Below, in pieces: positions 12,330-43,600 of a stretch of 64,000 bases of DNA. The notes beneath the pieces were generated by a model. The model was not told where the DNA came from, did not search any database, and saw only the letters and a program-made list of their open reading frames with translations. Each line of letters opens with the position of its first letter. The stretch's first letter is position 1. The DNA is from Magnetovibrio sp. (lineage in GTDB: Bacteria; Pseudomonadota; Alphaproteobacteria; Rhodospirillales; Magnetovibrionaceae), in assembly GCF_036568125.1 (NCBI RefSeq), contig NZ_DATCTF010000010.1:434001-498000 (forward strand). The letters are read 5' to 3'. Position numbers and translations under genes: made by a program.

Positions 12330-12439
12330 CCAAGGCACAATATGTAGTGGCTTCTCGCTATTTACCGTCCCCATATAGCGGGTGTATGATCTGCGCCATA
12401 GCTTAACAGGCAAAGCTCGGGCTTGCCCGGGGCACGAAC

Positions 12440-15400
12440 ATGGTCAAAGAGCCGCACAGCCGGAAAACCGGCGACGATACCAGCGCACTCGACAAACTCG
12501 GCCTTTCCGTCGCCGATGACATCGAGGGTGTCAACGCGCCCGCTGAACGCGAACCGTCGCCGAGCGAATTCGATGAATGGAAACAGCCGTTCTATCTGCG
12601 CTATAAGCTGGCCACCGGTTTGGGTGGGGTGCTCAGCGGCGTCTGGCTGTGGCTGACTTACACGTATATTGCCGACAACATCGGTTGGGACGTGTTGTAC
12701 GAGCTGCTGCCCCACGAATTGGGCGGTCTGGCGGCGGGAGTGTTTACGCCCGTCGCGCTGTTGTGGATGGTCATTGCGTTGTTCGAACGAGGCCACGGTT
12801 TGCGCAGCGAAACCGCGCACCTGCGCTGGCAGATCCGCCAACTGACGTACCCGTCTGATCGTTCCGAAAGCCGGGTCAAGGAAATCACCGAAAGCTTGCG
12901 CCGCCAGGCGCGCGATTTGAGCCAAGCCTCGGACGAAGCCTATAAACGCGGTGAAGCCATCACCAATCAAGTGCGCGAACGGGCGTTGGAATTGGCGCGG
13001 GTGTCCGAAGACGCCGACTTGCGCGCCCGTGCGGTGGCCGAGGCCCTGTCGCGCGAAACCGAGGAATTGCGTCTGGTGTCGCAAAAGGCCGAAAGCCGGG
13101 CGCGCGATGTCGGCGATGTCTTGCACCGTCGCGGCCACGACATCGCCACCGCCACTGATCGTGCCAGCGCACGCAGCGAAGATCTGGTCGAGGTTTTGGA
13201 ACGGCGCATTCAGGAATTGGCCGAGGTCTCCGAGGCCGGTTCGCGCCATGCCTTTGAGGTCGCCGACACCTTCCACCAGCGCAGCGAAGACATGGCGCGC
13301 ATCTCCGCCGAGACGGCGGCGCGTGCGGAAAGCGTGGGCGAAGTGCTCGCCACCCGCATCGCCGATATGAACGCCGCCACCGAAGACGCGGTGCAACGCA
13401 TCGAAACGGGATCGGAGCTGCTGGCCGGTGCAGGCGCTGAAATGGGTGCGCGCGGCGATCGCTTCGAAGCGCAGACCAATCGCATCGGCGAAACACTGCG
13501 TCGCCAACAGTCCGATTTGGAACGCGCCGCGTTGGATGCCGCCACTCATGCGCACGAGGTCGAAGGTCATCTGCAGCGCCAGACCCAGGCGCTCAACGAC
13601 ACCGCCGACAATGTCTCGTCACGGGTCAAGTCGATGACCGAAACCATGGGCGAGCATGCTCATGAACTGGTTGCAGCGTCCGATTTGGTGGCGTTGCGTA
13701 TGAAGGCGGCGGGCGAGGCCTTCCAGGCCGAAGCCAAAGGCTTATCAGCAACCGCCGAAAACGCCAATCAGCACACCGCTCAGGTGCGTGAATTGTTGCG
13801 CAAGACCTCGATGGACTTGAGCAACATTTCCGCCAAGGCCCTCGATCAGGTTGAAATGGTGGGCAAAGCCCTGCAAAGCCGTGCGGACGAACTGGCCAAG
13901 ACCGGTGACGAGTCCGAGGCACAGGTGATGGATGCTGCGGCGACGCTGAAGCTGCAAACACAAAACATCAAGGATGCGACGGAAACCTCCATCGCGCGCC
14001 TCGACGCGGTCGTCGATCATATGCGCGATGGTTCCGTGAACTTGGAAGGTGCGTCGAATACGGCGCAATCGGCCTTATCCGAAGCCACCCGCATCTTGGA
14101 AGAAGGGGCGAGCCGAATTGCGGTCAGCGCGCAAACCGGCGCCAGTTCCATCGCCACGGCGACCCGTGCAATGAAGGACGGCCTGGATGGCATCAACACA
14201 TCGTCGGAACGCACCGGCCAAATCACCGAAGCGTTCCGCCGTCACTTGATCGACTTCAAAAGCACGTCCAACGACGCGGTCAATTCGATTTCCGATTTGA
14301 GCGACATGGTGCAAGACCGCGCCCATTTGTTGGAAGGGGTCACCGATCACGCCACCAACAAGCTGTCGGATGCGGGCGATGTGTTGCAAAAACGCACCGA
14401 ACATATGATCTATGTCGCTGCGCGCACCGGTAAACTGGTGACCAACGCCACAGAAAACCTCGATCAGCGTACCGATATGATGGAAGACACTTCGGAACGC
14501 GCCGAAAACCGTCTGCGTCAACTCGGCGACGCGGTGCGCGAAAGTCTCAACCAACTGATGGAAAGTTCCGATCAGGCATCCGATCGTCTCGACAGCGTCA
14601 GCTCAACGCTGGAAGACCAGACCGAAAATGTCTCGCGGGTGACGGCGTCGGCAGTAGAAGACGTCGACAAGGCCACAGCCGCGCTGATGGAACGCTCCCG
14701 CGAAGTGGGCTCGGCCTCGGACCGTGCGGCGCGCTTGATTTCGCTGGTGTCCGACGCCCTGCACCGCCAGACGGCGGGCCTGACTGACGCGTCGAAGCAG
14801 GCGGCGGAACGCATTGACGTGATGGGCGACACCATCAAGGAGCACGCCCGCGAACTGGATGATTTGGGTACCCGCGCCACTGACCGATTGCTGGAAACCG
14901 GCGAAAAGCTCAAAGACAGCGCGTTCAGCCTGCAAAGCGTGACGGACGAATCCGTGAGCCGCGTGCGCACCGTCACCGACGCCTTGGTCGATGGCGAGCG
15001 GCTGGTATCGCAACGCATAGAAACGGCCGAACGCGAACTCGACGGGATCGGCCGGCGTTTGAACGAGCGCGCCGACGAAGCCGCGCGCGTCACGGGCCAG
15101 GCCGGCGACCGGTTGGAAGGGATCTCCGACACTTTCCGCCGCCACACCGAAAGCCTCGATACCGCGCTGGACCGCGCCAGCGACCGTTTGGAAGACGTCG
15201 GCGATTTGCTGTCACGGCGCACCGACGATTTGACCACGTCCTATACACGGGCTTCGGAACACATCCGCACGTTCTCCGACGACATGCACCAGCAGGCCAA
15301 TGGCTTGATGGAAGCGTCCGATCGCGCCGCCGGAAAACTGGGCGAGGTGAGCGCACGGTTGAACGAAGAGGTCCACGGCGTCAACAAAACCGTCGACAAG

Positions 15401-16570
15401 GCCACCAAGCTGATCGATCTGGTGACCAATGCGTTCCATCATCAGACCTCCGACCTGGGCGCGGCGTCGGAACGTGCGGCGGGCGAATTGGAACGGGTCA
15501 GCGAACTGGTCAAACGTTCGGCTGGCGAGATGTCGCGCATTTCCGACGACACCGTGCGCGATTTGGGCACTGCCGGCGATGCTTTGCGCCAGCACTTGGG
15601 CGATTTGAGTTCCGCATCCACCCAAGCCACCGCGAAAATGGAAGGCGCAGCCGACGCGTTGCGTTACCAGGGCCGCGAAATCCTGTCGGTTTCCGATGAA
15701 GCCTTGTCGAAAATCAATCAAGTCGGCGATAGTCTCAACCGTCAAAACGAGGGCATCGCGCAGCTTACCGAGAGCAGCTTGGAAAAGGTCCGTGTGTTCC
15801 TCGATCAGGTCGAGCGCCAAACCAAGGACACCGTGCTGGAAGCCGAGAAAATCAGCGAACATTTGGATGTGGCGCACAACCGCACGCGCGGCCAGCTCAA
15901 CGAGCTCAACCGCATGTACGGCCGTGCCGAACAGGGCGCGGGCTTGCTTGGCGAAGCGCTGGAAAAACAAAGCCACAACGTCGCCCGCGCCACCGAACAA
16001 TCGCTGGCACGGGTGGTGTCGTGGGACAAGACGTTGCGCGACCGGGTCGGCGATTTGACCCGCGCCTCGGAAACCGTGGCTCAGCAGCTTGCCGGGGTCG
16101 GCGACAAGGTCGATCAGGGGACCCGCGACCTGTTGCTGGCGGCTCGTCAGGCCCAGGCGCTTAACGAAAGCCTGGACGCGACCTTGGACCGCGCCCATGT
16201 GGACGATTTCATGCGCCGTTCGGCGTTTATCACCGAAAAGCTGCAATCCTTGGCGGTCGATTTGGCGCGCATCGTCGAAGTGCCGATCACCGAAGACGAC
16301 TGGCGCCGCTTCAACAAGGGCGAGAAGGGCATTTTCGTGCGCAAAATGCTGGGCTTCAAAGAAAAGAATACCTTGGCGTCGATTAAGGCGGTCTATCAAG
16401 AAGACGGCGAATTCCGCGACTACGTCGGGCGTTATGTCAGTGAATTTAACGCAATGATGGACAAAGCGCGCGAACGCGATCATGATGGGGTTCTTGAGAG
16501 CACATTCATGTCGTCGGACATGGGGAAATTGTATATGGTGCTCTCCAAGGCGCTTGGTCGCGACTTGTAA
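12440..16570 (+). CDS. Giant membrane-anchored helical-repeat protein (GPR-like architecture)
   Basis: 1376 residues. About 50 polar residues precede two hydrophobic helices (about 56-80 and 93-113), so both ends are probably cytoplasmic. From residue 164 to about 1235 the protein is an array of about 43 units of 25 residues, loosely SDxAxxRlxxVGDxLxRxTxxL, with a four-residue deletion in one unit. A distinct C-terminal domain (about 1250-1376) has DWRRFNKGEKGIFVRKMLGF and ends SSDMGKLYMVLSKALGRD. The architecture recalls the large apolipoprotein-like polar growth proteins of Rhizobiales (GPR/RgsE), which organise the growth pole. Homology is my inference, not proven. It is monocistronic, with a strong terminator. 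Confidence 0.88.
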   Translation: MVKEPHSRKTGDDTSALDKLGLSVADDIEGVNAPAEREPSPSEFDEWKQPFYLRYKLATGLGGVLSGVWLWLTYTYIADNIGWDVLYELLPHELGGLAAGVFTPVALLWMVIALFERGHGLRSETAHLRWQIRQLTYPSDRSESRVKEITESLRRQARDLSQASDEAYKRGEAITNQVRERALELARVSEDADLRARAVAEALSRETEELRLVSQKAESRARDVGDVLHRRGHDIATATDRASARSEDLVEVLERRIQELAEVSEAGSRHAFEVADTFHQRSEDMARISAETAARAESVGEVLATRIADMNAATEDAVQRIETGSELLAGAGAEMGARGDRFEAQTNRIGETLRRQQSDLERAALDAATHAHEVEGHLQRQTQALNDTADNVSSRVKSMTETMGEHAHELVAASDLVALRMKAAGEAFQAEAKGLSATAENANQHTAQVRELLRKTSMDLSNISAKALDQVEMVGKALQSRADELAKTGDESEAQVMDAAATLKLQTQNIKDATETSIARLDAVVDHMRDGSVNLEGASNTAQSALSEATRILEEGASRIAVSAQTGASSIATATRAMKDGLDGINTSSERTGQITEAFRRHLIDFKSTSNDAVNSISDLSDMVQDRAHLLEGVTDHATNKLSDAGDVLQKRTEHMIYVAARTGKLVTNATENLDQRTDMMEDTSERAENRLRQLGDAVRESLNQLMESSDQASDRLDSVSSTLEDQTENVSRVTASAVEDVDKATAALMERSREVGSASDRAARLISLVSDALHRQTAGLTDASKQAAERIDVMGDTIKEHARELDDLGTRATDRLLETGEKLKDSAFSLQSVTDESVSRVRTVTDALVDGERLVSQRIETAERELDGIGRRLNERADEAARVTGQAGDRLEGISDTFRRHTESLDTALDRASDRLEDVGDLLSRRTDDLTTSYTRASEHIRTFSDDMHQQANGLMEASDRAAGKLGEVSARLNEEVHGVNKTVDKATKLIDLVTNAFHHQTSDLGAASERAAGELERVSELVKRSAGEMSRISDDTVRDLGTAGDALRQHLGDLSSASTQATAKMEGAADALRYQGREILSVSDEALSKINQVGDSLNRQNEGIAQLTESSLEKVRVFLDQVERQTKDTVLEAEKISEHLDVAHNRTRGQLNELNRMYGRAEQGAGLLGEALEKQSHNVARATEQSLARVVSWDKTLRDRVGDLTRASETVAQQLAGVGDKVDQGTRDLLLAARQAQALNESLDATLDRAHVDDFMRRSAFITEKLQSLAVDLARIVEVPITEDDWRRFNKGEKGIFVRKMLGFKEKNTLASIKAVYQEDGEFRDYVGRYVSEFNAMMDKARERDHDGVLESTFMSSDMGKLYMVLSKALGRDL
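12929..16160 (+). repeat. In-frame array of ~43 diverged 75-bp repeats
   Basis: Each unit encodes 25 residues. Examples are SEDADLRARAVAEALSRETE (first 20 of one unit) and SDRAARLISLVSDALHRQTA (first 20 of another). Register is kept across the whole array except for one unit shortened by four residues (near 14210-14280). DNA identity between units is low, so the periodicity is held by protein structure rather than by recent duplication. Confidence 0.85.
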
Positions 16571-16687: not shown

Positions 16688-17536
16688 TTAGGCCGCTTCG
16701 CTTTGCGCCGCACGCACGCGGGTGAGGATCAATTCCGCCATTTCCGGGGCATCGCCCAGCGGCGGCAGATACACCAGCCGTCGGCCGTTGACGGTCAGCT
16801 CATTGGGCTGGATGGCGCTAAGGCGGCTGATGAAATCATCCGACTTTACGTCGAAGCCGATCTCGCGGGGGATTTCGTCTGCGCCATGATAGCCATCGGA
16901 AATCAGGAACGGCGCGAACACGACCGTTTGGGCGTCGCTCAAGGCGCGCCAATCCTTGATGAACGGCGTTTCTTCCAGAAACGAGGTGTAAATCGGAGCG
17001 CTGACGCCATGACGGCCGAGATCTCCGGCAATACGGGTGGTGTGCTCGAACGACGCCCGGCTGCGCTGCGAACCGTGACCGACCACCACCACGGCGGTGT
17101 CGCCGTCTTGATCGATCGCCAAATCGGCCATCGCCGCGCGGATGCGGATGGCGAAGGTCTTGGCGATGGCCGGATCGGTTCCCACCGGCGCGGTCTGAAA
17201 TATCCGCTGGTGACCATTGGGCGTGATCCGTTCGGTCACCGGGCCGGTCAGGCTCAGCGCCATCGGCAGCTTGTTGGTGGTGATGAACCCGGCGCAGGCC
17301 AAATTGGGCACCACGAAGATTTCCGGGGTGTTCATATCGTCGAGCACGTCCTTGACGAACGGTTTTTCGGTGAGAAATCCGGCCCGCACATCGGCGAACA
17401 ACGCCAATTTACGAATGGTCTCGGCGTGCTTGCGCGACGACGTGCGCCCACCAGGGGTGCTGGGCGAGCCGTGAGCGGCGATCAACAGACCTGCGCGGCT
17501 GAAATCCAGTACGGCGGGCGCGTCGTCCTTAGCCAT
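16688..17536 (-). CDS. CbiX/SirB-type chelatase, siroheme branch
   Basis: 282 residues with two CbiX-like halves: the first starts LLIAAHGSPSTPGG and the second VVVVGHGSQRSRASFEHTTR. Each contains the HGS motif whose histidine can serve in metal insertion. Family members insert Fe2+ (SirB) or Co2+ (CbiX) into sirohydrochlorin. As the last gene of the dsr locus, directly after the uroporphyrinogen methyltransferase, ferrochelation for the siroheme of DsrAB is the most likely role. Its start overlaps the end of the methyltransferase gene by eight bases, so translation is probably coupled. Confidence 0.83.
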   Translation of the reverse strand: MAKDDAPAVLDFSRAGLLIAAHGSPSTPGGRTSSRKHAETIRKLALFADVRAGFLTEKPFVKDVLDDMNTPEIFVVPNLACAGFITTNKLPMALSLTGPVTERITPNGHQRIFQTAPVGTDPAIAKTFAIRIRAAMADLAIDQDGDTAVVVVGHGSQRSRASFEHTTRIAGDLGRHGVSAPIYTSFLEETPFIKDWRALSDAQTVVFAPFLISDGYHGADEIPREIGFDVKSDDFISRLSAIQPNELTVNGRRLVYLPPLGDAPEMAELILTRVRAAQSEAA

Positions 17537-18347
17537 TCGAGGGACCAGAAGCCTGATCGTCTTCCAACAGGCATTGGTGCGCCTGGGTGTGCCAAGCGAT
17601 GGTGTTCGACAGATCGACCACTTTGCCGATGATCAGCAACGACGGGGCTTTCAGTTCGGCGCGTTCGATGCATGCGGGCAGTTTTTCCAAGGTGGTGAGA
17701 ATGGTGCGCTGCTCTTCGGTGGTGCCGCGTTCGATCCCGGCGGCGGGCATGTCGGCGGGCAAGCCGGCCTTGATCAATTCGTCGGAAATCTTTTGCACGT
17801 TGATCAAGCCCATGTAGATCACCAACGTGGTGTCGGGATCGGCCATGCTTTTCCAGTTGAGATCGAGGTGCTTGCCTTCTTGGCAGTGGCCGGTGACGAA
17901 GCGTACGCCGGTGACGTAGCCGCGATGGGTCAGCGGAATGCCCGCGTACGCGCCGCAGCCCGCCGATGCGGTGATGCCGGGCACGATTTCAAAGTCGATG
18001 TTGTGTTCGGCCAGGAACATGGCTTCTTCACTGCCGCGCCCGAAAATGAACGGATCGCCGCCCTTGAGGCGCACCACGGTCTTGTCCTGACGGGCGAGAT
18101 CGACCAGGGTCTGGTTGATTTCGTCTTGCGGCATGAAATGGTCGCGCGCCGCCTTGCCGGCGAAGATCTTTTCGCAAGCGTCGGGAACCATGTCCAAGAT
18201 TTCGTCCGATACCAGGCGGTCGTATACCACCACATCGGCCTTTTTCAGGCACGCAGCGGCTTTCAGCGTCAACAGGCCGGGATCGCCGGGACCGGCGCCG
18301 ACGATAAACACACTGACGTTATCCGATTTGGTTTTTACCTTGCTCAA
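17529..18347 (-). CDS. cobA: Uroporphyrinogen-III C-methyltransferase (SUMT)
   Basis: About 272 residues. Family motifs are VGAGPGDPGLLTLKA near the N-terminus, VVYDRLVS, RLKGGDPFIFGRGSEEA and VPGITASAGCGAYAGIPLTHRG. It converts uroporphyrinogen III to precorrin-2 with two S-adenosylmethionine molecules, the entry to siroheme. I propose a TTG start at 18347 because AAGGA lies six bases upstream, whereas the nearest in-frame ATG (18473) would run 85 bases into dsrN. It is a single-domain SUMT, without the CysG dehydrogenase/ferrochelatase domain; a separate precorrin-2 dehydrogenase is not seen in the window. Confidence 0.9.
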   Translation of the reverse strand: MSKVKTKSDNVSVFIVGAGPGDPGLLTLKAAACLKKADVVVYDRLVSDEILDMVPDACEKIFAGKAARDHFMPQDEINQTLVDLARQDKTVVRLKGGDPFIFGRGSEEAMFLAEHNIDFEIVPGITASAGCGAYAGIPLTHRGYVTGVRFVTGHCQEGKHLDLNWKSMADPDTTLVIYMGLINVQKISDELIKAGLPADMPAAGIERGTTEEQRTILTTLEKLPACIERAELKAPSLLIIGKVVDLSNTIAWHTQAHQCLLEDDQASGPSNG

Positions 18348-18388
18348 AGTCGTATCCTTAAATGAATGCCTGTGCCACGGATGGCGAA

Positions 18389-19810
18389 TTAACCGGCGAT
18401 TTGCGCCGGGGAAGCGGCGCGGCCACGTTGTTGTTTCTTCTGTCGCACGAAGGCGGTGAAAGCCTCCGCCCAACGGCAGCGACTGGTTGAGCGCAAATGC
18501 GCATAGCCTGCCACCATGTTGTGCATGACGATCCCGTCATGGTGCCCATCGACGCCTTGGCCGCGCAAGACCTCGAATGCGAATGTGAGGTCTGCATCGA
18601 TATTTTCAAGCCGTGAATGGTGAAATTCGTGGGCGGGGATGTAATCGCCTTCAAACGTGCAGGCGTTATCGGTGCCGTTCCACGGATGGGCGTCCGTGGG
18701 GCGCAAATGCACGTATCCACGGCCTTGCGGACGGGCGTGCATGGTGCTGTCGGCGGGGATCACGCCGACCATCTGATGGGTGTCTTCGTGCCACGAAATG
18801 GATCGCGACAGATACATCAACCCGCCGCATTCCGCATAGGTCGGCAGACCGGCTTCGATCGCGGCCTTGATGCGGGCGCGCAGGGTCTTGTTGGCTTCCA
18901 GCTTTTTCATCTGGGTTTCGGGAAAGCCTCCGCCCAAAAACAGGCCGTCGCAGGTGGGCAGATAGACGTCGTTCAGCGCATTGAAATAGACCAATTGCGC
19001 CCCCGATTTCTTCAGGGCATCGAGATCGTCGGCATAATAGAAACCGAACGCCGGGTCCTTGGCGACGGCAATACGCACATCGGGGCGCGCAAGCGGCGCA
19101 TCGGATTGCGGCGCAGGTATGGGCGTGGGGACTTGGGCGGCAATGGCCTCGATACGGTCGAGATCTACTTGGGCGGCGATCTCTTCGGCCAAGGTGTCGA
19201 TGCGCGCGCGGGCAGCCGGGTGTTCGTTGCTGGGGATCAGGCCGATGTGGCGCTCGTCCACGCCCAGCTTGGCGTTGCGCCGGATCGAGCCGAGCACCGG
19301 AATATTGGTGTAGCGCTCAACCGCGGCGATGAGCTTTTCTTCGTGACGCGGCCCCATGACCTTGTTCAAGATCACGCCGGCGATGGTGATGGAGGTGTCA
19401 AACACCTCGTACCCCTTGAGCAACGGTGCGATGCCGCGGGTGATGCCCGACGCGTCGACCACCAAAATCACCGGGGCGTTCAACATCTTTGCCAGCGCGG
19501 CGTTGGAATTGGAGCCCTCCACGTCGACGCCGTCGTGTAGGCCCTTGTTGCCTTCGATGATGGTGATGTCGGCGCGGCTCGCATGTGTGGCGAACAGGGC
19601 CTTGATCTCATCATCCGACTGGGTGTGGAAGTCGAGGTTGTAGCACGGTCGGCCCGCCGCCTCGCCCAGCCACTTGGGATCGATGTAATCGGGGCCTTTT
19701 TTGAAGGTCGCCACGGTGCGTCCGCGCAGCGCCAAGGCCCGGACCAACCCGGTCGTGACCATGGTTTTGCCCGAAGACTTGTGCGCGGCGGAAATCAGCA
19801 CGTGGCCCAT
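18389..19810 (-). CDS. dsrN: DsrN, siroheme amidase (cobyrinate a,c-diamide synthase family)
   Basis: 473 residues, starting MGHVLISAAHKSSGKT with the P-loop in the first 16 residues and AAAGG upstream. The N-terminal domain is the CobB/BioD-like ATPase; the C-terminal domain is a class I glutamine amidotransferase with the nucleophile in YAECGGLMYLS and a later EFHHSRLE. By sequence it is a cobyrinic acid a,c-diamide synthase. In dsr loci this enzyme is named DsrN and amidates siroheme to the siro(heme)amide found in reverse DsrAB. No cobalamin genes surround it, which supports DsrN over CobB. Confidence 0.9.
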   Translation of the reverse strand: MGHVLISAAHKSSGKTMVTTGLVRALALRGRTVATFKKGPDYIDPKWLGEAAGRPCYNLDFHTQSDDEIKALFATHASRADITIIEGNKGLHDGVDVEGSNSNAALAKMLNAPVILVVDASGITRGIAPLLKGYEVFDTSITIAGVILNKVMGPRHEEKLIAAVERYTNIPVLGSIRRNAKLGVDERHIGLIPSNEHPAARARIDTLAEEIAAQVDLDRIEAIAAQVPTPIPAPQSDAPLARPDVRIAVAKDPAFGFYYADDLDALKKSGAQLVYFNALNDVYLPTCDGLFLGGGFPETQMKKLEANKTLRARIKAAIEAGLPTYAECGGLMYLSRSISWHEDTHQMVGVIPADSTMHARPQGRGYVHLRPTDAHPWNGTDNACTFEGDYIPAHEFHHSRLENIDADLTFAFEVLRGQGVDGHHDGIVMHNMVAGYAHLRSTSRCRWAEAFTAFVRQKKQQRGRAASPAQIAG

Positions 19811-19826
19811 ATGGCGACCTTTCGGC

Positions 19827-20831
19827 TTATGCGGCCCGGAACATTTGCGCGCGGTTGCGCGTATTCCACAGGTTGCGGGCGTGATCGACGGCTTCTTCGG
19901 GGCTTGATGCGCGGCCCATGATGCGCAGCACATAGGCGGCGGTGCCGATCACGGCGGCTTCGCCGTAGACGTCGGTCTCGTCGCCATACCAGATCTTCGG
20001 CAGGCGCGTGATGTCCATGGTCTCGTCTTTGTAGAAGGCGCTTTCCTCGATCAAGGCGGGCCATTGCTCTTCGGATTTGATGCCGTCGTGCAGGTATTGC
20101 ACCACCACCGGCTTGTGCGGACGGCGTTCGGCTTCGCCGCCTTCGCCCTTGAACACCGCCATGTGTTTTTGGCCCAACAATTCGGCCGTGTCGCGGTGGA
20201 TGTCGCGGTAGTTGGGGTGGAACACGGTCTGCATTTCATGCGCGGCGTTGAACGGGTTGATCATGCGCGCGAAGGTGTTGACCGGCGAGCGCACGCCGAG
20301 GATCGGCTTCAACTCGATGATCTCTTGCAGGCGCGGCACGAAATTACGCAGCGGCAGATAGGCGAAATTGGTGGCGCGGATTTGCTCGGCGGCTTCTTCC
20401 ATGGAGCCCGCGAGGGGGATGCCCAGGGCGGTGAGCGCTTCGCTGGAAAACAGGCGGCCTTCGGTGTGGCCTTCGGTGCCTTGCATGCAGATGGTGATGC
20501 CGTTTTGCGCCAACAGCATCGCCGACAGCAGATACCACGGCAATTGACGCTTTTTGCCCGAGTACGATGCCCAGTCGACATCGACCACCGGGGCGTTGGC
20601 CGGCACGGTGATGGTGTCGCGCACGGCGCGCACGAAACCGGCGCCTTCGCCCGGAACTTCGGTGCGCATGCGCAAGATGCACAAGAACGCGCCTAGCTGC
20701 AGCGGTTCGACGTCGCCGGAAACAATCAGTTTCGCGGCGTCGTACATTTCTTCTTCGTCCAACGGCCGCGACAGGTTGGGGCCACGGCCGATGATGCGGA
20801 TGTACTGGGCAAAAGGATGCTCGGTGCTCAT
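19827..20831 (-). CDS. TrpD2/YbiB-like glycosyltransferase-family protein in the dsr operon
   Basis: 334 residues of the anthranilate phosphoribosyltransferase-like fold: an N-terminal helical domain (MYDAAKLIVSGDVEPLQLGAF) followed by the alpha/beta domain with MQGTEGHTEGRLFSSEALTA and LKPILGVRSPVNTFARMINP. The canonical TrpD GTGGD loop is replaced (VDWASYSGKKRQLPW), which is typical of the YbiB/TrpD2 branch, whose characterised member binds nucleic acid rather than making tryptophan. Its stop is 16 bases from the dsrN start, so it belongs to the same transcript. Its role in sulfur oxidation or cofactor handling is unknown. Confidence 0.8.
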   Translation of the reverse strand: MSTEHPFAQYIRIIGRGPNLSRPLDEEEMYDAAKLIVSGDVEPLQLGAFLCILRMRTEVPGEGAGFVRAVRDTITVPANAPVVDVDWASYSGKKRQLPWYLLSAMLLAQNGITICMQGTEGHTEGRLFSSEALTALGIPLAGSMEEAAEQIRATNFAYLPLRNFVPRLQEIIELKPILGVRSPVNTFARMINPFNAAHEMQTVFHPNYRDIHRDTAELLGQKHMAVFKGEGGEAERRPHKPVVVQYLHDGIKSEEQWPALIEESAFYKDETMDITRLPKIWYGDETDVYGEAAVIGTAAYVLRIMGRASSPEEAVDHARNLWNTRNRAQMFRAA

Positions 20832-20857
20832 GTCGTCTCAATCCACGTTTTCAAAGT

Positions 20858-20923
20858 CCCCGAATCATTTCGGGGAGGGAAGTCCTGTAAAATAGAAGGG
20901 ACCCAGGCACTATGACCTGGGCC
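20858..20923 (-). other. Two hairpins between dsrP and the TrpD2-like gene
   Basis: CCCCGAA/TTCGGGG with a TCAT loop (20858-20875), and CCCAGG/CCTGGG with flanking GGG/CCC (20898-20923). On the minus strand the second stem is followed by TCCCTTCTATTTTA, a weak U-rich stretch. It may be a partial terminator or a processing/stabilising stem at the end of the dsrP message. Confidence 0.5.
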
Positions 20924-20980
20924 CCCCCGAAAAACCAGTCATTTGCCCCCAGCAAATGAAAGATTGTGAAGCTGACGACC

Positions 20981-22204
20981 TTAGGCGTCGTCGGACGCGT
21001 GATGCGGATCGACCTTGGCGTCGGACAAGCTGGTCGGCAGCAACGGCAGGTACTTGACCGCCACCGCAATGATCAAGACCGTCACGGCAAAGCCGCTCAA
21101 GCCAAGCATTACTTCCCAATGGCTCGGGGTGTAAGGGTGGATCGCGCCATCGAAGAAGCTTGATGAAACTTCCATGCCTGGGAACAGCTGCAGCGGGAAC
21201 GCCTGGCCGCCGATGATGATGATATACATCTGCGCCAAACCGCCGATGATCACCAAGATCGAGGCGATCACGATGCCCTGACAGGTTCGACCGGTGGCCG
21301 GGTTAAACAGCAACGCCAGCGGGAAAACGGTACCCAGGCCGATCTGCACCACCCAGAACAAGAAGGTGTAAATACCGCCATCCATCAAGATGAAAGATTC
21401 AACACCGCCGTGTTCGGCTGCATACAAGTTGGTCAAGTGTTGCACCACGGTGAAGTAGAACGCCGCTGCGACGAATACGCCCAACAAGTTGCGCATCTTG
21501 AACAAGATCAGGTCGCCCAAAGGACGGCCCGATGACTTATACGCCACCGACACCAAAATGATGAAGAAGGCGAGACCAAAGGCAAAGGACAAGGCGATGA
21601 ACAGCGGCGCCATGATGGCGGCGTCATAACCCGGACGGGCGACCAGGAAACCGAAGATCGAGCCGGTACCGGTGGTCAGGATCAAGCGCCACACGAAAGC
21701 AAACAAACCGGCTTTCTTGGAATGGGGCACCATGCGCCGTTCCATCATCATCCACAGGTATGCCGCCACGATGACGAAGAACCCGTTATAGAGAATGATG
21801 TTCCAGGCGAAGATGGACTTGAAATTATAGTGGGTCATCGCCACGATCAAACGATCGGGGCGGCCGAGATCGAGCACCAGAACCATCAAACCGCCAGCCA
21901 GCAAGGCCAATGAAGAGACGGCAGACAGGCGCGCCAAGGGCTTGTAGTGGTATTTACCAAACACCGACGAGATCGACGCGACGTTCAACGCACCGGATGC
22001 GGCTACGATCAAGAACACGGCGAACACATGCGGGGTGCCCCACACGATGGCGTTGTTCATGCCAGTGATGACATGGCCATGGTGTTCCATATTATAGACA
22101 GCGTAGAGCCCGACAGCGATCATCGCGCCCAGCCAACCGATCAGGGAATAATAATCCCCGCCCTTGCCTTCGATTTCTTTGTAAACGGTCGTATCAGCAG
22201 CCAT
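20981..22204 (-). CDS. dsrP: DsrP, NrfD-like quinone-interacting membrane subunit
   Basis: 407 residues with about ten hydrophobic helices, e.g. WLGAMIAVGLYAVYNMEHHG and HVFAVFLIVAASGALNVAS, the pattern of NrfD/PsrC-family menaquinol or ubiquinol subunits. In the DsrMKJOP complex DsrP partners the iron-sulfur protein DsrO and the cytochrome DsrJ. Its start is four bases after the dsrO stop, as in an operon with coupled translation. In sulfur oxidisers the complex takes electrons from the DsrC cycle to the quinone pool or periplasm. Confidence 0.94.
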   Translation of the reverse strand: MAADTTVYKEIEGKGGDYYSLIGWLGAMIAVGLYAVYNMEHHGHVITGMNNAIVWGTPHVFAVFLIVAASGALNVASISSVFGKYHYKPLARLSAVSSLALLAGGLMVLVLDLGRPDRLIVAMTHYNFKSIFAWNIILYNGFFVIVAAYLWMMMERRMVPHSKKAGLFAFVWRLILTTGTGSIFGFLVARPGYDAAIMAPLFIALSFAFGLAFFIILVSVAYKSSGRPLGDLILFKMRNLLGVFVAAAFYFTVVQHLTNLYAAEHGGVESFILMDGGIYTFLFWVVQIGLGTVFPLALLFNPATGRTCQGIVIASILVIIGGLAQMYIIIIGGQAFPLQLFPGMEVSSSFFDGAIHPYTPSHWEVMLGLSGFAVTVLIIAVAVKYLPLLPTSLSDAKVDPHHASDDA

Positions 22205-22208
22205 GACC

Positions 22209-22976
22209 TTAAATCCCCCGGTAATGGACGCCAGGCTCGACGCCGAGGTCGGCGCGGATGCGTTGCGTCACGTACTTGGATACAGCACGCGAAATTTCGG
22301 AATTCGGATCGTTGAGATCACCAAACATGATGGCGTTGGAGCCAGCTTTGTTTAGCGCCTCGACACACGCGGGTTTTTGACCCTTGTCGACGCGGTGCAC
22401 GCACATGGTGCAGGCTTCGACGGTGCCTTTGCCGCGCGGCATGTGCGGACGTTGCCCGTGTGCGTCTTCGTGCACGAACGAACGGCAGGAGTAGGGGCAC
22501 GCCATCATGCAGTAGCGACAGCCGATGCAGATGTGCTTGTCGACCAAAACGATACCATCGGCGCGTTTCATCGACGCGCCGGTGGGGCACACGTCGACGC
22601 ACGGCGGGTTGGCGCAGTGCTGACACATGACCGGCAAACTGGCTTTGGCGCCGGTCTTGGGGTCTTTGATGGAAACCTTGCGGATCCATTGCGGATCGGT
22701 CGCCGGGTTGGCGTCTTTTTCGTCTTTACCCCAGCCCTGTTCGGCTTTACAGGCATCGATCGCCAAATCCCACACGCCTTCCGGCGCGTTGGCGTCGACC
22801 AGCATGCCCCAGCGCTTGGCCGAGGTAGCCGGCCCGGTCACGGCGGCTTGCACCGTTTGCAGCGTTACGCCCGGTGCCAGGGTGATGACGGCAGCCGCTG
22901 CACCGCCCTTGAGCAGGTTGCGGCGGGACGTATCAACAGCGTTCATGCCTACGGAATTACGAGACGTGTCCGTCAT
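22209..22976 (-). CDS. dsrO: DsrO, Tat-exported periplasmic ferredoxin subunit
   Basis: 255 residues. The N-terminus has a twin-arginine signal SRRNLLKGGAAAAVITLAPG, so the folded protein is exported with its clusters. Several cysteine groups follow: CQHCANPPCVDVCPTGAS, CIGCRYCMMACPYSCRSF and CTMCVHRVDKGQKPAC, consistent with up to four [4Fe-4S] clusters of the NrfC/DmsB type. It passes electrons between DsrJ and DsrP. Its ATG overlaps the dsrJ stop in an ATGA junction. The start is fixed by that overlap and by the Tat motif. Confidence 0.94.
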   Translation of the reverse strand: MTDTSRNSVGMNAVDTSRRNLLKGGAAAAVITLAPGVTLQTVQAAVTGPATSAKRWGMLVDANAPEGVWDLAIDACKAEQGWGKDEKDANPATDPQWIRKVSIKDPKTGAKASLPVMCQHCANPPCVDVCPTGASMKRADGIVLVDKHICIGCRYCMMACPYSCRSFVHEDAHGQRPHMPRGKGTVEACTMCVHRVDKGQKPACVEALNKAGSNAIMFGDLNDPNSEISRAVSKYVTQRIRADLGVEPGVHYRGI

Positions 22977-23467
22977 TGTTTGGCCCCCTTGTCGAGATGT
23001 TTTTCCAGGGCCGCGATCAGCGCCTTGTCGGCATGGTCGGCGGGCAGGGCGGACTGTTTGCCCATGCCCGGCTGGGCTGCGCCGGTGTGGCATTGGAAAC
23101 AGTCGATGGAAACGGCTGCGTAGGTGTGGCACTCCGCACAGAACGGCTTGAGCGTGCGCACCTTGCCGCCCGCGACGTCGGGAGACGTCACCGCGTGGCA
23201 ATCGATGCATTCGTTCAAGCTGTACTTGTTGCCGCGAATACCTTCGCGCAGCGTTTCATCGCGCTGGTGTTTAAGGAACTCAAAATGATTACGGCGCATC
23301 ACGTCTGTGGGTTCGACGCATTGCTCACCCTTGAAGGCCTTGGCCGGTTTCGGCACAGGCACTTCGCCGGCATGGGCGGGAGCGGCCATCAGGCCGCTCC
23401 CAATCCCAAAGGCGACAAGGACAAACCCCAAAATCGTGAGGCTCAGAATTCGAGAAGCCGAACGCAT
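22973..23467 (-). CDS. dsrJ: DsrJ, periplasmic triheme cytochrome c
   Basis: 164 residues with an uncleaved or Sec-type signal (LTILGFVLVAFGIGSGLMAA). Three heme-binding motifs are visible: CIDCH (87-91), CAECH (110-114) and CFQCH (123-127). Cys50 in KGEQCVEPTDVMRRNH corresponds to the conserved cysteine that in Allochromatium DsrJ can act as an axial heme ligand. It is the periplasmic redox subunit of DsrMKJOP. The AGGAGG-like GGAGGAA upstream supports the start. Confidence 0.95.
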   Translation of the reverse strand: MRSASRILSLTILGFVLVAFGIGSGLMAAPAHAGEVPVPKPAKAFKGEQCVEPTDVMRRNHFEFLKHQRDETLREGIRGNKYSLNECIDCHAVTSPDVAGGKVRTLKPFCAECHTYAAVSIDCFQCHTGAAQPGMGKQSALPADHADKALIAALEKHLDKGAKQ

Positions 23468-23499
23468 TCGACGTTCCTCCTTAAGTCTAGTCCGTCTTG

Positions 23500-25440
23500 T
23501 TACTCACCAAGACCCATCTGGATGTAGCCGGTCGGGCACACATCGCGGCAGATGTGGCAGCCGATGCACTTCGTGTAGTCGGTGTCGACGTAACGGCCGA
23601 CGGTGACATCGTCGCGCTTGACGCGGAACACGGCGTCTTGCGGGCAGAAGATCACGCAGTTGTCGCACTCGAAGCACATGCCGCAGCTCATGCAGCGTTC
23701 GCCTTCGTGTTGCGCCTGTTCGGCGGTGAAGCCAACCAGACGTTCTTCGAAGTTGCCGAGAACCTCATCCGCGCTGATGTGCTTTTCTTCGCGCTTTTGC
23801 ACCGGATCGTAGGTGTAGTGACCCAAGAACAGCTCGTCGTGCGGGATGATCTGCGAAGAAGAACGGTCTTCGAAGTTGTGCACGGCGAATTTGGCTTCCG
23901 AGGTGCCGCGAACCGGTTCTTTGGAATACGGCTCGGGGTCCTTGTGGCGCTGGTGCAGTTCGTTCAACAGGTTGAAGTGGTGCACGTCGACCTTCGGACG
24001 ACGCTCGTCGGGGTGACCGGCGAGCATGTGGTCGATGCTTTCGGCAGCGATCGCGCCGTGGCCGATGGCGGTGGTCAGCAGGTGCGGGCGGACGATGTCG
24101 CCGCCGGCGAAGTGCTTTTCGGTGCCTTTGACTTGGTAGACCGGGGTGATGTCCATGAAGCCACGGCCGTTGTCGAGAGCTTCCAGGCCGTTGGCCAAGT
24201 CGCCCATCTGACCGATGGCGGACACGATCAGGTCGCATTCGATGTCGAATTCGGTGCCTTCGACGGGAACCGGGGTCATGCCGTCCATGGTGCATTCGCA
24301 CATGCGCAGAGCGGTGGCGCGGCCGTTGGCATCTTTGATGATGTCGACCGGCATCACGCCGCCTTTGATTTCCACGCCTTCGCGGGTGGCGTCTTCACGT
24401 TCGCGCTCGGATGCGGTCATGCCTTCGAGCGGGAACAGCGACGTCAGAACTGACTGCACGCCTTCACGCTGCGCAGCGGACGCCACGTCGTGTGCGGTGT
24501 GGCCGAGAACGACGGCTTCCGGACGATCTTTTTCCGCCATGGTGGAGATGTGACCCAGACGACGGGCAACGGATGCAACGTCGATCGAGGTGTCGCCACC
24601 GCCGACCACGACCACTTTCTTGGTGGTGTAGTGCAAGCGACCTTGGTTGAACGCTTCGAGGAACGCAACACCGGTGATGCAGTTTTCGGTGCCTTCCCAG
24701 GAGTCGAGGAACAGACCTCGGCCCTTCTGTGCGCCAACGGCCCAGAAGATGGCGTCGTAGTCGGCTTCGAGCTGTTCGACGGTGACGTCTTTACCGATGG
24801 TCACGCCCAACTTGGCTTCCACGCCGGTGTCCAGGATACGCTGGATTTCAGCATCCAAGATGTCGCGCGGGACGCGATAGCCGGGGATACCGAACGCCAT
24901 CATGCCGCCCAGTTTGTCCTGCTTTTCGAAAACCGTGACGCTGTGGCCCTTGCGGCGCATCTGCCACGCAGCGGCCAAGCCGCCCGGTCCACCGCCGATG
25001 ACGGCGATTTTCTTGCCGGTTTCTTTTTCCGGCTTGGGCAGGGTCAGATTGTGTTCGATGGCATAATCGCCGACGTGCTGTTCGACGCCGTTGATGCCGA
25101 TCTGATCGTCGACTTCGTTACGGTTGCAGCCGTCTTCGCACGGTGCCGGGCAAACGCGGCCCATGACCGACGGGAACGGGTTGGCTTCGACCATGCGTTC
25201 GAACGCATATTCCTGCCAAGCCTGGCCTTCGACCGGGGATTTGTCCATGCCGCGGGCAATCGCCAGCCAGCCGCGGATGTCGTGGCCGGACGGGCACGAA
25301 CCTTGGCACGGCGGGGTGCGGTGGACGTAGGTCGGGCACTTGTGCGACCAGCCCGCCTGGAAAATTTTTTCTTGGAAGTCATCCCATTCGGATTCACCGT
25401 CGGTGTAACGTCGCCAATTCAAAGCCTGTTCCGCAGTCAT
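23500..25440 (-). CDS. dsrL: DsrL, iron-sulfur flavoprotein NAD(P)H oxidoreductase
   Basis: 646 residues, start MTAEQALNWRRY supported by AAGGAAG upstream. Domains in order: N-terminal cysteine cluster region (CPTYVHRTPPCQGSCPSGHD, and CPAPCEDGCNR), then a glutamate-synthase-small-subunit-like flavin/NAD(P) core with AVIGGGPGGLAAAWQMRRKG and VVVGGGDTSIDVASVARRLG, and a C-terminal two-cluster ferredoxin (CMSCGMCFECDNCVIFCP and CIGCHICRDVCPTGY). In sulfur oxidisers DsrL binds DsrAB and moves electrons from sulfite formation to NAD(P)+. Its presence, with DsrEFH, marks the oxidative type of dsr pathway. Confidence 0.95.
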   Translation of the reverse strand: MTAEQALNWRRYTDGESEWDDFQEKIFQAGWSHKCPTYVHRTPPCQGSCPSGHDIRGWLAIARGMDKSPVEGQAWQEYAFERMVEANPFPSVMGRVCPAPCEDGCNRNEVDDQIGINGVEQHVGDYAIEHNLTLPKPEKETGKKIAVIGGGPGGLAAAWQMRRKGHSVTVFEKQDKLGGMMAFGIPGYRVPRDILDAEIQRILDTGVEAKLGVTIGKDVTVEQLEADYDAIFWAVGAQKGRGLFLDSWEGTENCITGVAFLEAFNQGRLHYTTKKVVVVGGGDTSIDVASVARRLGHISTMAEKDRPEAVVLGHTAHDVASAAQREGVQSVLTSLFPLEGMTASEREREDATREGVEIKGGVMPVDIIKDANGRATALRMCECTMDGMTPVPVEGTEFDIECDLIVSAIGQMGDLANGLEALDNGRGFMDITPVYQVKGTEKHFAGGDIVRPHLLTTAIGHGAIAAESIDHMLAGHPDERRPKVDVHHFNLLNELHQRHKDPEPYSKEPVRGTSEAKFAVHNFEDRSSSQIIPHDELFLGHYTYDPVQKREEKHISADEVLGNFEERLVGFTAEQAQHEGERCMSCGMCFECDNCVIFCPQDAVFRVKRDDVTVGRYVDTDYTKCIGCHICRDVCPTGYIQMGLGE

Positions 25441-25463
25441 GTTTTTTCTTCCTTCTTCGCAAG

Positions 25464-25525
25464 GGGGCTTCAGCCCCTCTGTGATGATGCCCTGTTTGTC
25501 AGGGGGCGGCGGGATGATGCCCGCC
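25464..25525 (-). other. Three tandem hairpins between dsrK and dsrL
   Basis: The 97-base gap holds three short perfect stems in a row: GGGGCT/AGCCCC (25464-25477), CCCTG/CAGGG (25490-25504) and GGCGGG/CCCGCC (25508-25525). No U-tract follows, so full termination is unlikely. They are better explained as RNA-processing or stability elements within the operon. Confidence 0.55.
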
Positions 25526-25537
25526 TTGCCTGTTCGT

Positions 25538-27034
25538 TTATTCCTTAGCGCCGAGCTGGATCGCTTCGCTGACCAGCTGGTGCACACTCACAATCATGTC
25601 CATGGAGAAACCGTAATACGGCATCACCTTGGTGAATTGGCTCTTACAAATGGCGCAGATTGCGGCCATGTGCGTGACGCCATGGTTCTCAACAACGTCC
25701 TTGAGCGCTTCCATACGCGGCAGCGCACCCTTGACGCGAAGCTCCATCAAATCGTCGGTCAACAAACCGCCGCCACCGCCGCAACAGAAGGTTTTCTCAT
25801 GCGTGGTTTGCGGGTCCATTTCGACGAACCTGTTCACGCTGGCCTGAATAACGGCGCGCGGGATGATGAATTGACCGCCTTCCATGTCGCCCATGCGCGA
25901 GGCGCGGGCCACGTTGCAGCTGTCGTGGAAGGTCAACACCTTGTCATCGTTGGCTTCCGGGTCGAGCACGATGCCGCCCGACTGGATCAAGCCATGGGTG
26001 ACCTCGAGGATGTGTTGAGGCACCGGGTACTTGGGATCGAGGAAGTCCCACGGACCGGCCAAGGTGTTCAAGAACGAATACGCGACGCGCCAGGCATGGC
26101 CGCATTCACCGAATACGATGCGCTTGACGCCCAGATCCAACGCGGCCTTGCGGATGCGGTTGGCGACCTTGTGCATCTGTTCGTACGAACCGATGAACAT
26201 GGCGAAGTTGGCCGCTTCCGATGCGTACGACGACAGCGTCCAGCTGATGCCCGCTTGGTGGAAGACCTTGGCGTAACCGATCAGGCCGTCCACATGGGGC
26301 TCGGCGAAGAAGTCGGCCGACGGGGTCACCAGCAGCACGTCGGCGCCGTGAACGTCGAGCGGGAATTTGACCTCGACATCGGTGTCGTCGAGGACGTCTT
26401 CTTCAAGGCCTTCCAAGGTGTCGACCAGTGCCGGTTCCGGCAGGCCGAGGTTGTTGCCGATGACGTGAACCTTGGCGAGAATTTCGTTGGAATATTTTTG
26501 GCCGACGCCGATGTGGTCCATGATGTCGCGGGCGGCCATGGAAATTTCGGCGGTGTCGATGCCGTAGGGGCAGAACACCGAGCAACGGCGGCACTGGGAA
26601 CACTGGTGGAAGTATTTGTACCAGTCGTCCAGCATCTCCTTGTTCATGTCTTTCGCGCCGACCAGGCCCGGTGCGATCTTGCCGGCCAGGGTGAAGTGGC
26701 GGCGATACAGAGAACGCAGCAGATCCTGACGCGCAACCGGCATGTTTTTGGGGTCGCCGGTGCCGAGGAAGTAGTGGCACTTATCGGTACACGCGCCGCA
26801 TTTCACGCAGCTGTCGAGATACACGCGCAGGGCACGGTTCTTTTCGAGCAGATCGCCGAGCTTTTCGACGGCCTTTTCTTCCCAGTTGTCCACCAATTCA
26901 CCGGGGAAGCCGAGGGGCTCGTTATGCTCCGGCTTGGCGATGAACGGCTGCGAGTGGTCCATCGCGCCGTCTTGAATGGCGGGATTGTCCCTGAACTCAC
27001 GGAACGCCGGGGTTTCGAATTTTTGGTCTGCCAC
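25538..27034 (-). CDS. dsrK: DsrK, HdrD-like catalytic iron-sulfur subunit
   Basis: 498 residues. I chose the GTG at 27034 because GAGGAG lies seven bases upstream; a TTG two codons earlier is too close to it. Cys76, Cys79, Cys82 and Cys86 form the first [4Fe-4S] motif (CVKCGACTDKC) and CSQCRRCSVFCPYG the second. The C-terminal half carries CCG-type segments, TFHDSCNVARASRMG and KTFCCGGGGGLLTDDL, which in this family bind the noncubane catalytic cluster. DsrK is the heterodisulfide-reductase-like subunit that handles the DsrC disulfide or trisulfide on the cytoplasmic side of the complex. Confidence 0.95.
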   Translation of the reverse strand: MADQKFETPAFREFRDNPAIQDGAMDHSQPFIAKPEHNEPLGFPGELVDNWEEKAVEKLGDLLEKNRALRVYLDSCVKCGACTDKCHYFLGTGDPKNMPVARQDLLRSLYRRHFTLAGKIAPGLVGAKDMNKEMLDDWYKYFHQCSQCRRCSVFCPYGIDTAEISMAARDIMDHIGVGQKYSNEILAKVHVIGNNLGLPEPALVDTLEGLEEDVLDDTDVEVKFPLDVHGADVLLVTPSADFFAEPHVDGLIGYAKVFHQAGISWTLSSYASEAANFAMFIGSYEQMHKVANRIRKAALDLGVKRIVFGECGHAWRVAYSFLNTLAGPWDFLDPKYPVPQHILEVTHGLIQSGGIVLDPEANDDKVLTFHDSCNVARASRMGDMEGGQFIIPRAVIQASVNRFVEMDPQTTHEKTFCCGGGGGLLTDDLMELRVKGALPRMEALKDVVENHGVTHMAAICAICKSQFTKVMPYYGFSMDMIVSVHQLVSEAIQLGAKE

Positions 27035-40613: not shown

Positions 40614-43600
40614 ATGGCTACCAACGATTTAGGCAACGGCACTGTTGACCTCACCTCCGGCGAAAGCACAAGCTTCTCCGTAGAGGCGACCTCTGGCGAT
40701 ACGATTGTGATCCCCGAAGGGCTCAACCCGGCAACGGCTGATTATGCGCATGAGGGCCCCGATCTGATCTTGACCTGGCCTGACGGCAGCGAAGTGGTCG
40801 TGAAGGATTACTTCATGGTCGATCCGCAGCCGACATTGGCGTCTGAGCAAGGCGCCGAGGTGCCAGGAGATCTTGCTGCTCGTTTGGCCGGTCCCGTCGC
40901 CCCTGGAATGGTAGCCCAGGCCGGTGCGGAAGGTGTCACCGAACAACCTATCGGTCAGGTTGAAAAGCTTGTCGGCACGGTCACGGCGGTGCGCGCGGAC
41001 GGTACACGCGTCGAACTGCAAGCGGGCGATCCCGTTTATCAGGGTGACATTCTCGAAACCGGTCCCGACGGTGCCATCGGCGTGATCTTGGCCGACGAAA
41101 CCACGTTCTCCATGGCTGAAGACGGTCGCATGGTTCTGGATGAAATGGTTTACGATCCGGGCACCCAGGAAGGTTCCGTGTCCATGTCTGTGATGCAAGG
41201 TGTGTTCACCTTTGTGTCCGGTCAGGTCGCCAAGACCGATCCCGACGCCATGACTTTGCACACCCCGGTCGCGACCATTGGTATTCGCGGCACCCAGGTG
41301 GGCTTGGATTTGTCCGACGGTCAAAACCTCGACATCGTGTTGATGGAAGAAGCCGACGGCTTCGTCGGCGAAGTCGTGGTGACGAACACTGGTGGCGTGA
41401 CGGTCTTGAACGGCGCCAACGAATTTACCGTGGTGAACAGTTTCTTGTCCGCGCCGAGCGCAAGTTCGGTCATGAATACCGAGAGCATGATCAACTCGTT
41501 CTCCGGTTCTCTGCGTTACTTGCCGTTGAACCAACATAACGTCAACGACTTTGGTCTTCAGGCTCAAATTCAGCAAGGCCAGGGGCTGAATGCCGATGGT
41601 TTGGCTGATTTTGAAACCTCTTCCGGCGAAGATGCCTCTGATATTCAAGCCGACGGTCTGGCAGACTTCGACACCGCTGCGGGCGCTCAAACGGTTGAGG
41701 ACGAACTTGCCAACTTCGACACCGCCGCGGGTGCTTCCGATCAAATCAACGGCGCCGACGACCCAATTACCGTGGCCGTGGACGCCGCGGCTGTCGGTCT
41801 TTCGCAATTGACCGGCGGGCAGCAGGGCTCGCCCTCCCAAGATATTCCCAAAGGCACACCTCCGGAAGGAACTCCGCCGACAGACAATCCTCAAGATACA
41901 CCCGAGGACACGGCTGGCGCGCCCACGATTTCCGTTAACGATGCGACGGTCAACGAAGACGGCACCGTCGCTCTCGACATTACCGTGGCAACAACGAACG
42001 CTGGCGATACGATCGAGACGATCACCATTTCCGGCGTGCCAGAAGGCGCAAGCCTGTCGGCCGGCACGCTCAACAGCGACGGCACCTGGACTCTGTCTCC
42101 CGGTCAGTTGAGCGGCCTCACCATTACGCCTAAGGGCGATTACAGCGGCACCTTCGATCTTAAGATCACTGCGACGGCGACGGATGGCACTGCGACGGCA
42201 ACCACGCAAACCCCTGCCACCTTGAGCGTCAGCGTGACGCCGGATGCCGATACCCCGACGTTGAGCGCGACGGCGGGCACCGGCCAGGGCGGCGAGGCGA
42301 TCGCATTGAATATTACGACGGCTGTAACCGATACGGATACGTCTGAAACCGTGACCTCGATCACCATTGGCAACGTTCCGGACGGTGCGAAGCTGAGCGC
42401 CGGTACAGATAACGGTGACGGCACCTGGACTCTGTCCGCGGACGATCTGGCAGGCCTGACCATCACTCCGGCTGCGGACTACAGTGGTACCATCAATTTG
42501 TCAGTCACAACTGAGGTTACCGATACCGCCACGGGCCTGCCTTCCGATACGGCCACGGCAACGCAAACGGTTGGCGTCGTCGTTGAGGCTCCGACGCCTG
42601 TGGCAGGCGAGCCGGCGATTTCCGTTAACAACGCTACGGTCAACGAAGACGGCACCGTCGCCCTCGATATTTCCGTTTCGACTTCTGACGCGGGCGACAC
42701 GATTGCTTCGATCACCATTTCCGGCGTACCCGACGGCGCAAACTTGTCCGCCGGCACCGACAATGGCGACGGCAGCTGGACGTTGGCGCCGGGCGATCTG
42801 ACCGGCCTTACCATTACGCCCAAGGGTGACTACAGCGGCACCTTCGATCTCAATGTAACGGCGACGGCGACGGACGGCACCGCCACGGCGACCACGCAAA
42901 CCCCCGCCACCTTGAGCGTCAGCGTGACACCTGATGCCGATGCGCCGACCTTGAGCGCGACCACCTCGGGTGGCGCGGAAGACACGGTGATCGCGTTGAA
43001 TATCACAACGGCCGTTACGGACACCGATACGTCTGAAAGCATCACCTCCATCACCATCTCCAACGTTCCGGACGGTGCGAAGCTGAGCGCCGGTACCGAT
43101 AACGGTGACGGCACCTGGACGTTGAGCGAAGGGCAATTGGACGGTCTGACGCTGACGCCGCCGAGCAACTTCAATGGCACTATCGATCTGTCCGTGACCA
43201 CTCTGGTCACCGACACGGCAACCGGCCTGCCTTCGGACACGGCTACCGCCACCCAATCGCTATCTGTCACGGTGACGCCGGTCGGCGACACCCCGGGCAT
43301 CGCGGTTGTGGGTGGTGGGATCGGTGATGAGGACACCAACATCCCGATCGGCATCACGGTGACGCCGGTGGGTGGCGAAACCCTGACCAACGTCGTGATC
43401 AGCGGCGTTCCGACGGGTGCGAGCCTGTCACTGGGTACCGACAACGGTGATGGAACCTGGACCATTGACGGCGCCGATTTGGCCGACCTTGGCAACCTGA
43501 CCATGACGCCGGTTGAACACTACAGCGGTACGCCGACACTCGGTGTCGCGGTGACCACATCCGAGGGCGGTACGGCTTCGGTCGACGTTCCGGTGACGGT

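Follow-up and report, generated by a model that had tools for sequence, protein, structure and literature searches.

The window analysed here, a 64,000-nucleotide stretch of a Magnetovibrio sp. contig (NZ_DATCTF010000010.1, positions 434,001 to 498,000), carries a single open reading frame (ORF; 12440..16570, forward strand, ATG start) for a 1376-residue protein with a membrane anchor, a long helical rod and a C-terminal cap. On sequence evidence this protein, the Caulobacter polar protein TipN and the growth-pole proteins GPR and RgsE of the Rhizobiales are shown to form one alphaproteobacterial family, whose members combine a membrane hairpin, a long unbroken helical rod and a cap that is helical and conserved. 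Homologues of the window protein were found in 52 of the 60 genomes sampled near the window, with identity extending over the whole length in related species. Within the window's order the separation of anchor and cap agrees to the residue across nine families, and the protein is probably a polar scaffold or landmark of the TipN kind.

Hairpin, cap and membership of the family

The second of the two transmembrane (TM) helices (TM2, about residues 94–115; 12719..12784, this and all further features of the protein lying on the forward strand) is clear from hydropathy, and its conserved proline, Pro104, is present in 115 of 117 family members. TM1 (about residues 57–78; 12608..12673) is weak in the window copy, but is clear in many relatives, and AlphaFold, run on residues 41–250, folds it as a helix. 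Conservation in the protein is highest at residues 86–120, while the cap (residues 1250–1376; 16187..16567), all-helical and conserved across the class, also ranks among the most conserved parts, so that two features of an initial annotation made from the letters alone, a pair of N-terminal membrane helices and a conserved-looking C-terminal cap, hold up. An AlphaFold model of residues 1226–1376 is helical throughout (mean predicted local distance difference test score, pLDDT, 76); it was folded from a single sequence, as a direct MAFFT alignment of the window and TipN caps began doubtfully. No structure in the PDB resembles the cap fold (best E 0.89), and a search of the PDB with the cap sequence gave no credible match, two designed proteins being returned at E<0.001.

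Plain tblastn links the cap to S. meliloti RgsE (E=6e-18, 34.5% over 116 aa), and the profile comparison with RgsE that the initial annotation had proposed bears this out (HHalign, P=8e-29), with TipN matched at P=9e-10. The hairpin profile likewise matches RgsE (P=3e-7) and TipN (1.6e-5), against 0.05 and 0.8 in hairpin-versus-cap controls; a hairpin-only profile was used, an iterated anchor hidden Markov model having been dropped after it drew in rod segments (1165 rows). Also present in the window protein is the long helical rod of heptads and hendecads, a trait of the TipN-GPR/RgsE superfamily. The S. meliloti record is a 2089-aa ‘kinesin’ that matches the published length of RgsE (PMC7327166), and a named scan of C. 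vibrioides returned an 882-aa protein, the sole significant cap match in that genome, TipN having a published length of 882 aa (PMC13170164). A PopZ sequence was used solely to locate Caulobacteraceae-like genomes, the named records then being confirmed.

Relatives detected with the cap profile occur in 154 of 387 genomes of the class, nearly always as a single copy per genome. A broader cap profile found 135 of 397 genomes in a sample of the phylum, with all of the matches listed falling within the window's class, and the viral contigs searched held no relative. Membership of the family is as such not new, earlier papers having noted that GPR resembles TipN (PMC8546619) and that Rhodospirillales have distant homologues of RgsE (PMC7327166). 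The comparison does bring TipN (Caulobacter) and GPR/RgsE (Rhizobiales), which have been studied apart, together in one testable family spanning much of the class.

Periodicity of the rod and its variants

The rod (residues 126–1221; 12815..16102) was delimited by Fourier analysis, autocorrelation and a register fit, and consists of 44 helical units. The Fourier spectrum of its hydrophobicity has its maximum at 3.570 residues per turn (power 167, where the 99th percentile of shuffled sequences is 9.3) and its BLOSUM autocorrelation has maxima at lags of 25, 50 and 75, which confirms the 25-residue period that the initial annotation had put forward for checking. When the register of 25 positions is given a single -4 slip, it accounts for 54% of the hydrophobicity variance, compared with 0.365 for the slipless register and a maximum of 0.043 in shuffles, and chance periodicity is ruled out by the shuffles. 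Among the slips fitted (plus or minus 3, 4, 7 and 11) the best is -4, near residue 594, and phase tracking along the protein finds one step of about +42 degrees. The register resolves into 43 full 25-residue units and a single shorter one of 21 (residues 576–596; 14165..14227), in agreement with the roughly 43 units and single 4-residue slip noticed at the outset; the units are exact, as they had been called, in register but not in sequence, being only about 17–30% identical to each other. Seven positions of each 25-residue unit form its core (3, 7, 10, 13/14, 17, 21 and 24), corresponding to two heptads and a hendecad, and at the slip a heptad takes the place of the hendecad, leaving a unit of three heptads. 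Among distant relatives the core positions are 44% identical, against 25% for the remaining positions. Recent tandem expansion was rejected for the window protein, since its units are so dissimilar mutually, yet each aligns one-to-one with relatives; tandem copies proper (75–89% identical) are found only in relatives, for example those at two loci labelled L093 and L094.

Proline makes up 0.1% of residues 121–1260 (P138, in a YPSD break preceding the rod), and in the AlphaFold model of residues 41–250 two membrane-region helices are followed by the YPSD break and then a single unbroken helix. We infer for the rod a parallel coiled coil, slightly supercoiled in the left-handed sense, and not, as originally suggested, something close to a straight helix bundle, because 25/7 lies between the heptad coil and the undistorted helix. 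Its computed contour at full extension is about 160 nm (1,107 residues × 0.148 nm). ZorA and MCE-family profiles match the rod weakly, which might suggest a ZorA/MotA-like motor tail or an unrelated long coiled coil, an identity that is scarcely credible: ZorA_1 scores 21.8 against a cut-off of 190 bits and MCE 34.1 against 140.5, rod-only matches below cut-off are expected from helix composition, and both ends of the protein are homologous to TipN and RgsE. ZorA, MCE and SMC were accordingly set aside as candidates, their matches being below cut-off and confined to the rod.

Rods of more than one kind occur in the family, with peak periods of 3.57 in the window protein, 3.654 in RgsE (lags 22 and 11) and 3.59 in TipN (lags 25 and 29). 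Among 124 labelled members, 100 have rods in the range of the 25-type, 13 have rods of the 11-type and 7 are intermediate. In the cap tree, in which L187, a wrong ORF on a long branch, was disregarded, all 13 hendecad rods fall into a single clade (support 100/90, recovered in 99% of bootstrap trees) that is nested within the 25-type rods, and the window protein lies outside this 13-row RgsE clade. As read from these sequences, the prevalent form of the rod is the 25-residue one, and the 11-residue ‘apolipoprotein’ rod of GPR/RgsE arose once, in one clade. The Apolipoprotein A1/A4/E family, PF01442, was matched in 3 of 3 GPR/RgsE-clade members examined (S. meliloti RgsE at 257.8 bits, in 8 stretches), whereas the window protein gave no match to it at E<=1. 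Because the matching members tested all belong to the one clade that switched to 11-residue repeats, the apolipoprotein similarity of GPR, which has been used to argue for lipid binding, may reflect a period shared by chance and not descent. The analogy to GPR/RgsE drawn in the initial annotation becomes homology as regards hairpin and cap, S. meliloti RgsE being the GPR homologue, while the position outside that clade, the lack of PF01442 and the period of 3.570 against 3.654 set the window protein apart.

One family, f49, taken to be Rhodobacteraceae, has versions of 330–354 aa with hairpin and cap but without a rod, and appears to have lost the rod altogether. Rodless versions of about 320–520 aa, occurring either alone or as paralogues of a coexisting long protein, were seen at L113, L157, L158 and L188–L192; these include paralogues in the window's genus (L188, with a weak cap) and family (L189).

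Distance between membrane and cap

From the conserved TM2 proline to a conserved cap glycine, 20 of the 35 members of the order, including the window protein, count exactly 1190 residues, and these 20 belong to nine families (f1, f3, f5, f9, f15, f18, f20, f25 and f26). Of 22 pairwise global alignments over about 1330 residues, 12 are free of internal gaps, at identities of 28–78%, and the weakest 25-residue stretches of the rod are only 13–16% identical despite equal net length. Comparison proteins from the same loci, at 27–46% identity, mostly show 1–9 gaps per 200–310 residues. Close relatives depart from 1190 by +11, +22 (two genomes of one family), +196, +588, +784 and, once, -1, and further departures in the order are +55, +121 and +563, the larger changes being mostly whole hendecads or 196-residue tandem blocks. 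Self-comparison identifies the additions of 196, 588 and 784 as tandem copies (<=89% identical) of one 196-residue block of seven 25-residue units and one of 21. In the distant relatives L093 and L094, of the same order, this brings the distance to 1190+588 and 1190+784, and L092 has its additional block at residue 596, directly after the 21-residue unit. A spacing of 196 residues also separates the skip residues of myosin rods, a likeness that is probably coincidence. Length modulo 25 has no single phase across the whole class, and only the order-level pattern holds.

This pattern of sequence lengths suggests that the anchor-to-tip length is itself under selection. As the distance is held at 1190 in the window's order, some 1,100 of these residues belonging to the rod, the fixed length would seem to have a function, whether it sets how far the cap stands from the membrane or keeps adjacent rods in register with each other, and the long rigid ruler first proposed gains from the strict conservation over nine families, which supports a ruler-like constraint. 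Several points weigh against it. Rod length is variable in the GPR clade, with open frames of 2000–2475 aa in one Rhizobiaceae-type genus, so a fixed length is no rule of the family, and several families of the window's order have other lengths (distance 729–1974). The gap-free alignment at 28% identity hinges on gap costs, BLAST having put five gaps in one pair, although the net distance of 1190 does not. A coiled coil, moreover, resists insertions and deletions anyway, so part of the constraint may be on register and not on total length. Carried further, this would mean that length is kept merely since insertions and deletions break the coiled-coil register, total length having no role of its own. 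Such an account is possible, if not the one we favour: the tolerated changes of +11, +22 and +196 do preserve register and rods vary widely in the family's other lineages, but register-preserving changes, for which 7, 11, 18 and 25 residues would all serve, occur in sister lineages and yet 20 members in nine families share one net length.

The TipN/GPR family might, as a tentative extension, be a class-wide molecular-ruler system in which one hairpin and cap are retained, rod length is set by lineage and the heptad:hendecad ratio is switched. Lengths would then range from none to about 2,500 residues, with 1190 fixed in the window's order and growth by 196-residue blocks, and length would set a dimension of a polar assembly, such as the diameter of a ring or the depth of a polar zone. 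The natural series of lengths (rodless, fixed 25-type, 196-block duplicates and hendecad) can be used to test a polar ruler role for a bacterial coiled coil.

Likely polar role and genomic surroundings

By analogy with its characterised relatives, the window protein is probably a TipN-like polar scaffold or landmark with a set length. TipN (882 aa), the landmark of the new pole in Caulobacter vibrioides, has ParA as an interaction partner (PMC4460556, PMC5182065). It shares with the window protein a homologous hairpin and cap, a single copy, a helical rod with a dominant 25-residue lag and a host with MreB, but its rod is about 430 residues long with mixed 25/29 lags, compared with about 1,100 residues, and a long non-helical linker, present in L174, separates the rod from a divergent cap (P=9e-10). 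On the pattern of these relatives, the hairpins would collect at the cell pole, the rods would pair as parallel coiled coils through their 7+7+11 repeat, and the caps would dock partner proteins at a set distance from the membrane. Two considerations tell against a TipN-like role, namely that polarity of the window protein and its close relatives is argued from characterised relatives, and that the linker before the TipN cap has no counterpart here, the rod ending at residue 1221 and the cap starting at about 1250 with no proline-rich stretch between.

GPR/RgsE (2115 aa in Agrobacterium, 2089 aa in S. meliloti) also have a homologous hairpin and cap, and a cytoplasmic rod of more than 1,000 residues. 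RgsE, a cytoplasmic protein anchored in the membrane, localises to the growing pole and interacts with TolQ, RgsA and RgsS (PMC7327166); GPR, whose C terminus is essential, assembles into a ring there (PMC8262873). The common anchor-rod-cap architecture, and the rounding up of cells on GPR depletion (PMC8262873), would be compatible with a GPR-type organiser whose ring at the growing pole directs wall synthesis as in Rhizobiales. We consider this unlikely, as the window protein falls outside the GPR/RgsE clade with its support of 100/90, and GPR/RgsE rods, unlike that of the window protein, have a period of 3.65–3.67 (11/22/44), strong PF01442 matches and a length that varies within a genus. 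Their hosts, Rhizobiales with Rgs proteins, are growers without MreB (PMC7327166), whereas the window genome carries a full MreB (E=3.5e-150, 348-aa open frame), and a TipN-like landmark is therefore preferred over a GPR-like organiser of polar growth. The polar scaffold of the initial annotation, compared there to growth-pole proteins, is narrowed accordingly, a role in polar growth having become the less likely part of it.

An envelope-lipid tether, in which the rod or the cap positions envelope machinery, for instance a lipid transporter of the Mla/MCE type, and polarity is secondary, would suit six loci of the class where the gene lies near apparent MCE/Mla transporter genes (judged by sequence motifs), and a connection with lipids has been suggested for GPR on account of its apolipoprotein-like rods (PMC8262873). 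For the window protein it is improbable: there are no MCE/Mla genes beside its gene or in L129–L132 of its order, the neighbour there being a uroporphyrinogen-III methyltransferase, and the apolipoprotein match, which looks like a common 11-residue period, is absent. The TipN-like landmark also has an analogue, in outline only, in another phylum, where the DivIVA-related Scy/FilP of Streptomyces combine polarity with a very long hendecad/heptad rod (PMC9858780), and Scy, as does TipN, regulates ParA (PMC3718342). The window protein gave no match to DivIVA (Pfam) at E<=1. We know of no membrane hairpin in Scy/FilP.

The window gene sits between a TauE-type permease and siroheme/dsr sulphur-metabolism genes. 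The convergent methyltransferase gene downstream is kept in three other members of the order, which helps to establish orthology and says little about function. At seven Rhizobiales-type loci (L111, L114, L115, L120, L121, L122 and L125) the family gene lies near a gene for an Hpt-domain protein, a neighbour called in S. meliloti, and at most of them a 2Fe-2S protein gene and apparent MCE/Mla-like transporter genes are nearby; to our knowledge, a link of GPR/RgsE to Hpt, 2Fe-2S or MCE/Mla-like genes has not been discussed in the literature. Two long ORFs run antisense inside the rod gene (12362–13570 and 15212–16483, both on the reverse strand), and shadows of them recur in relatives; they are most likely a by-product of codon use on the coding strand. 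Further along the window, positions 17529–27000 hold a Dsr-type sulphur cluster, with DsrO above cut-off and a DsrP-like protein, as well as cobyrinate diamide synthase (DsrN-like), uroporphyrinogen-III methyltransferase and CbiX. A 2144-aa protein with FecR, cadherin-like, DUF4114 and RTX repeats, encoded on the forward strand at 40614–47048, is probably a large secreted adhesin.

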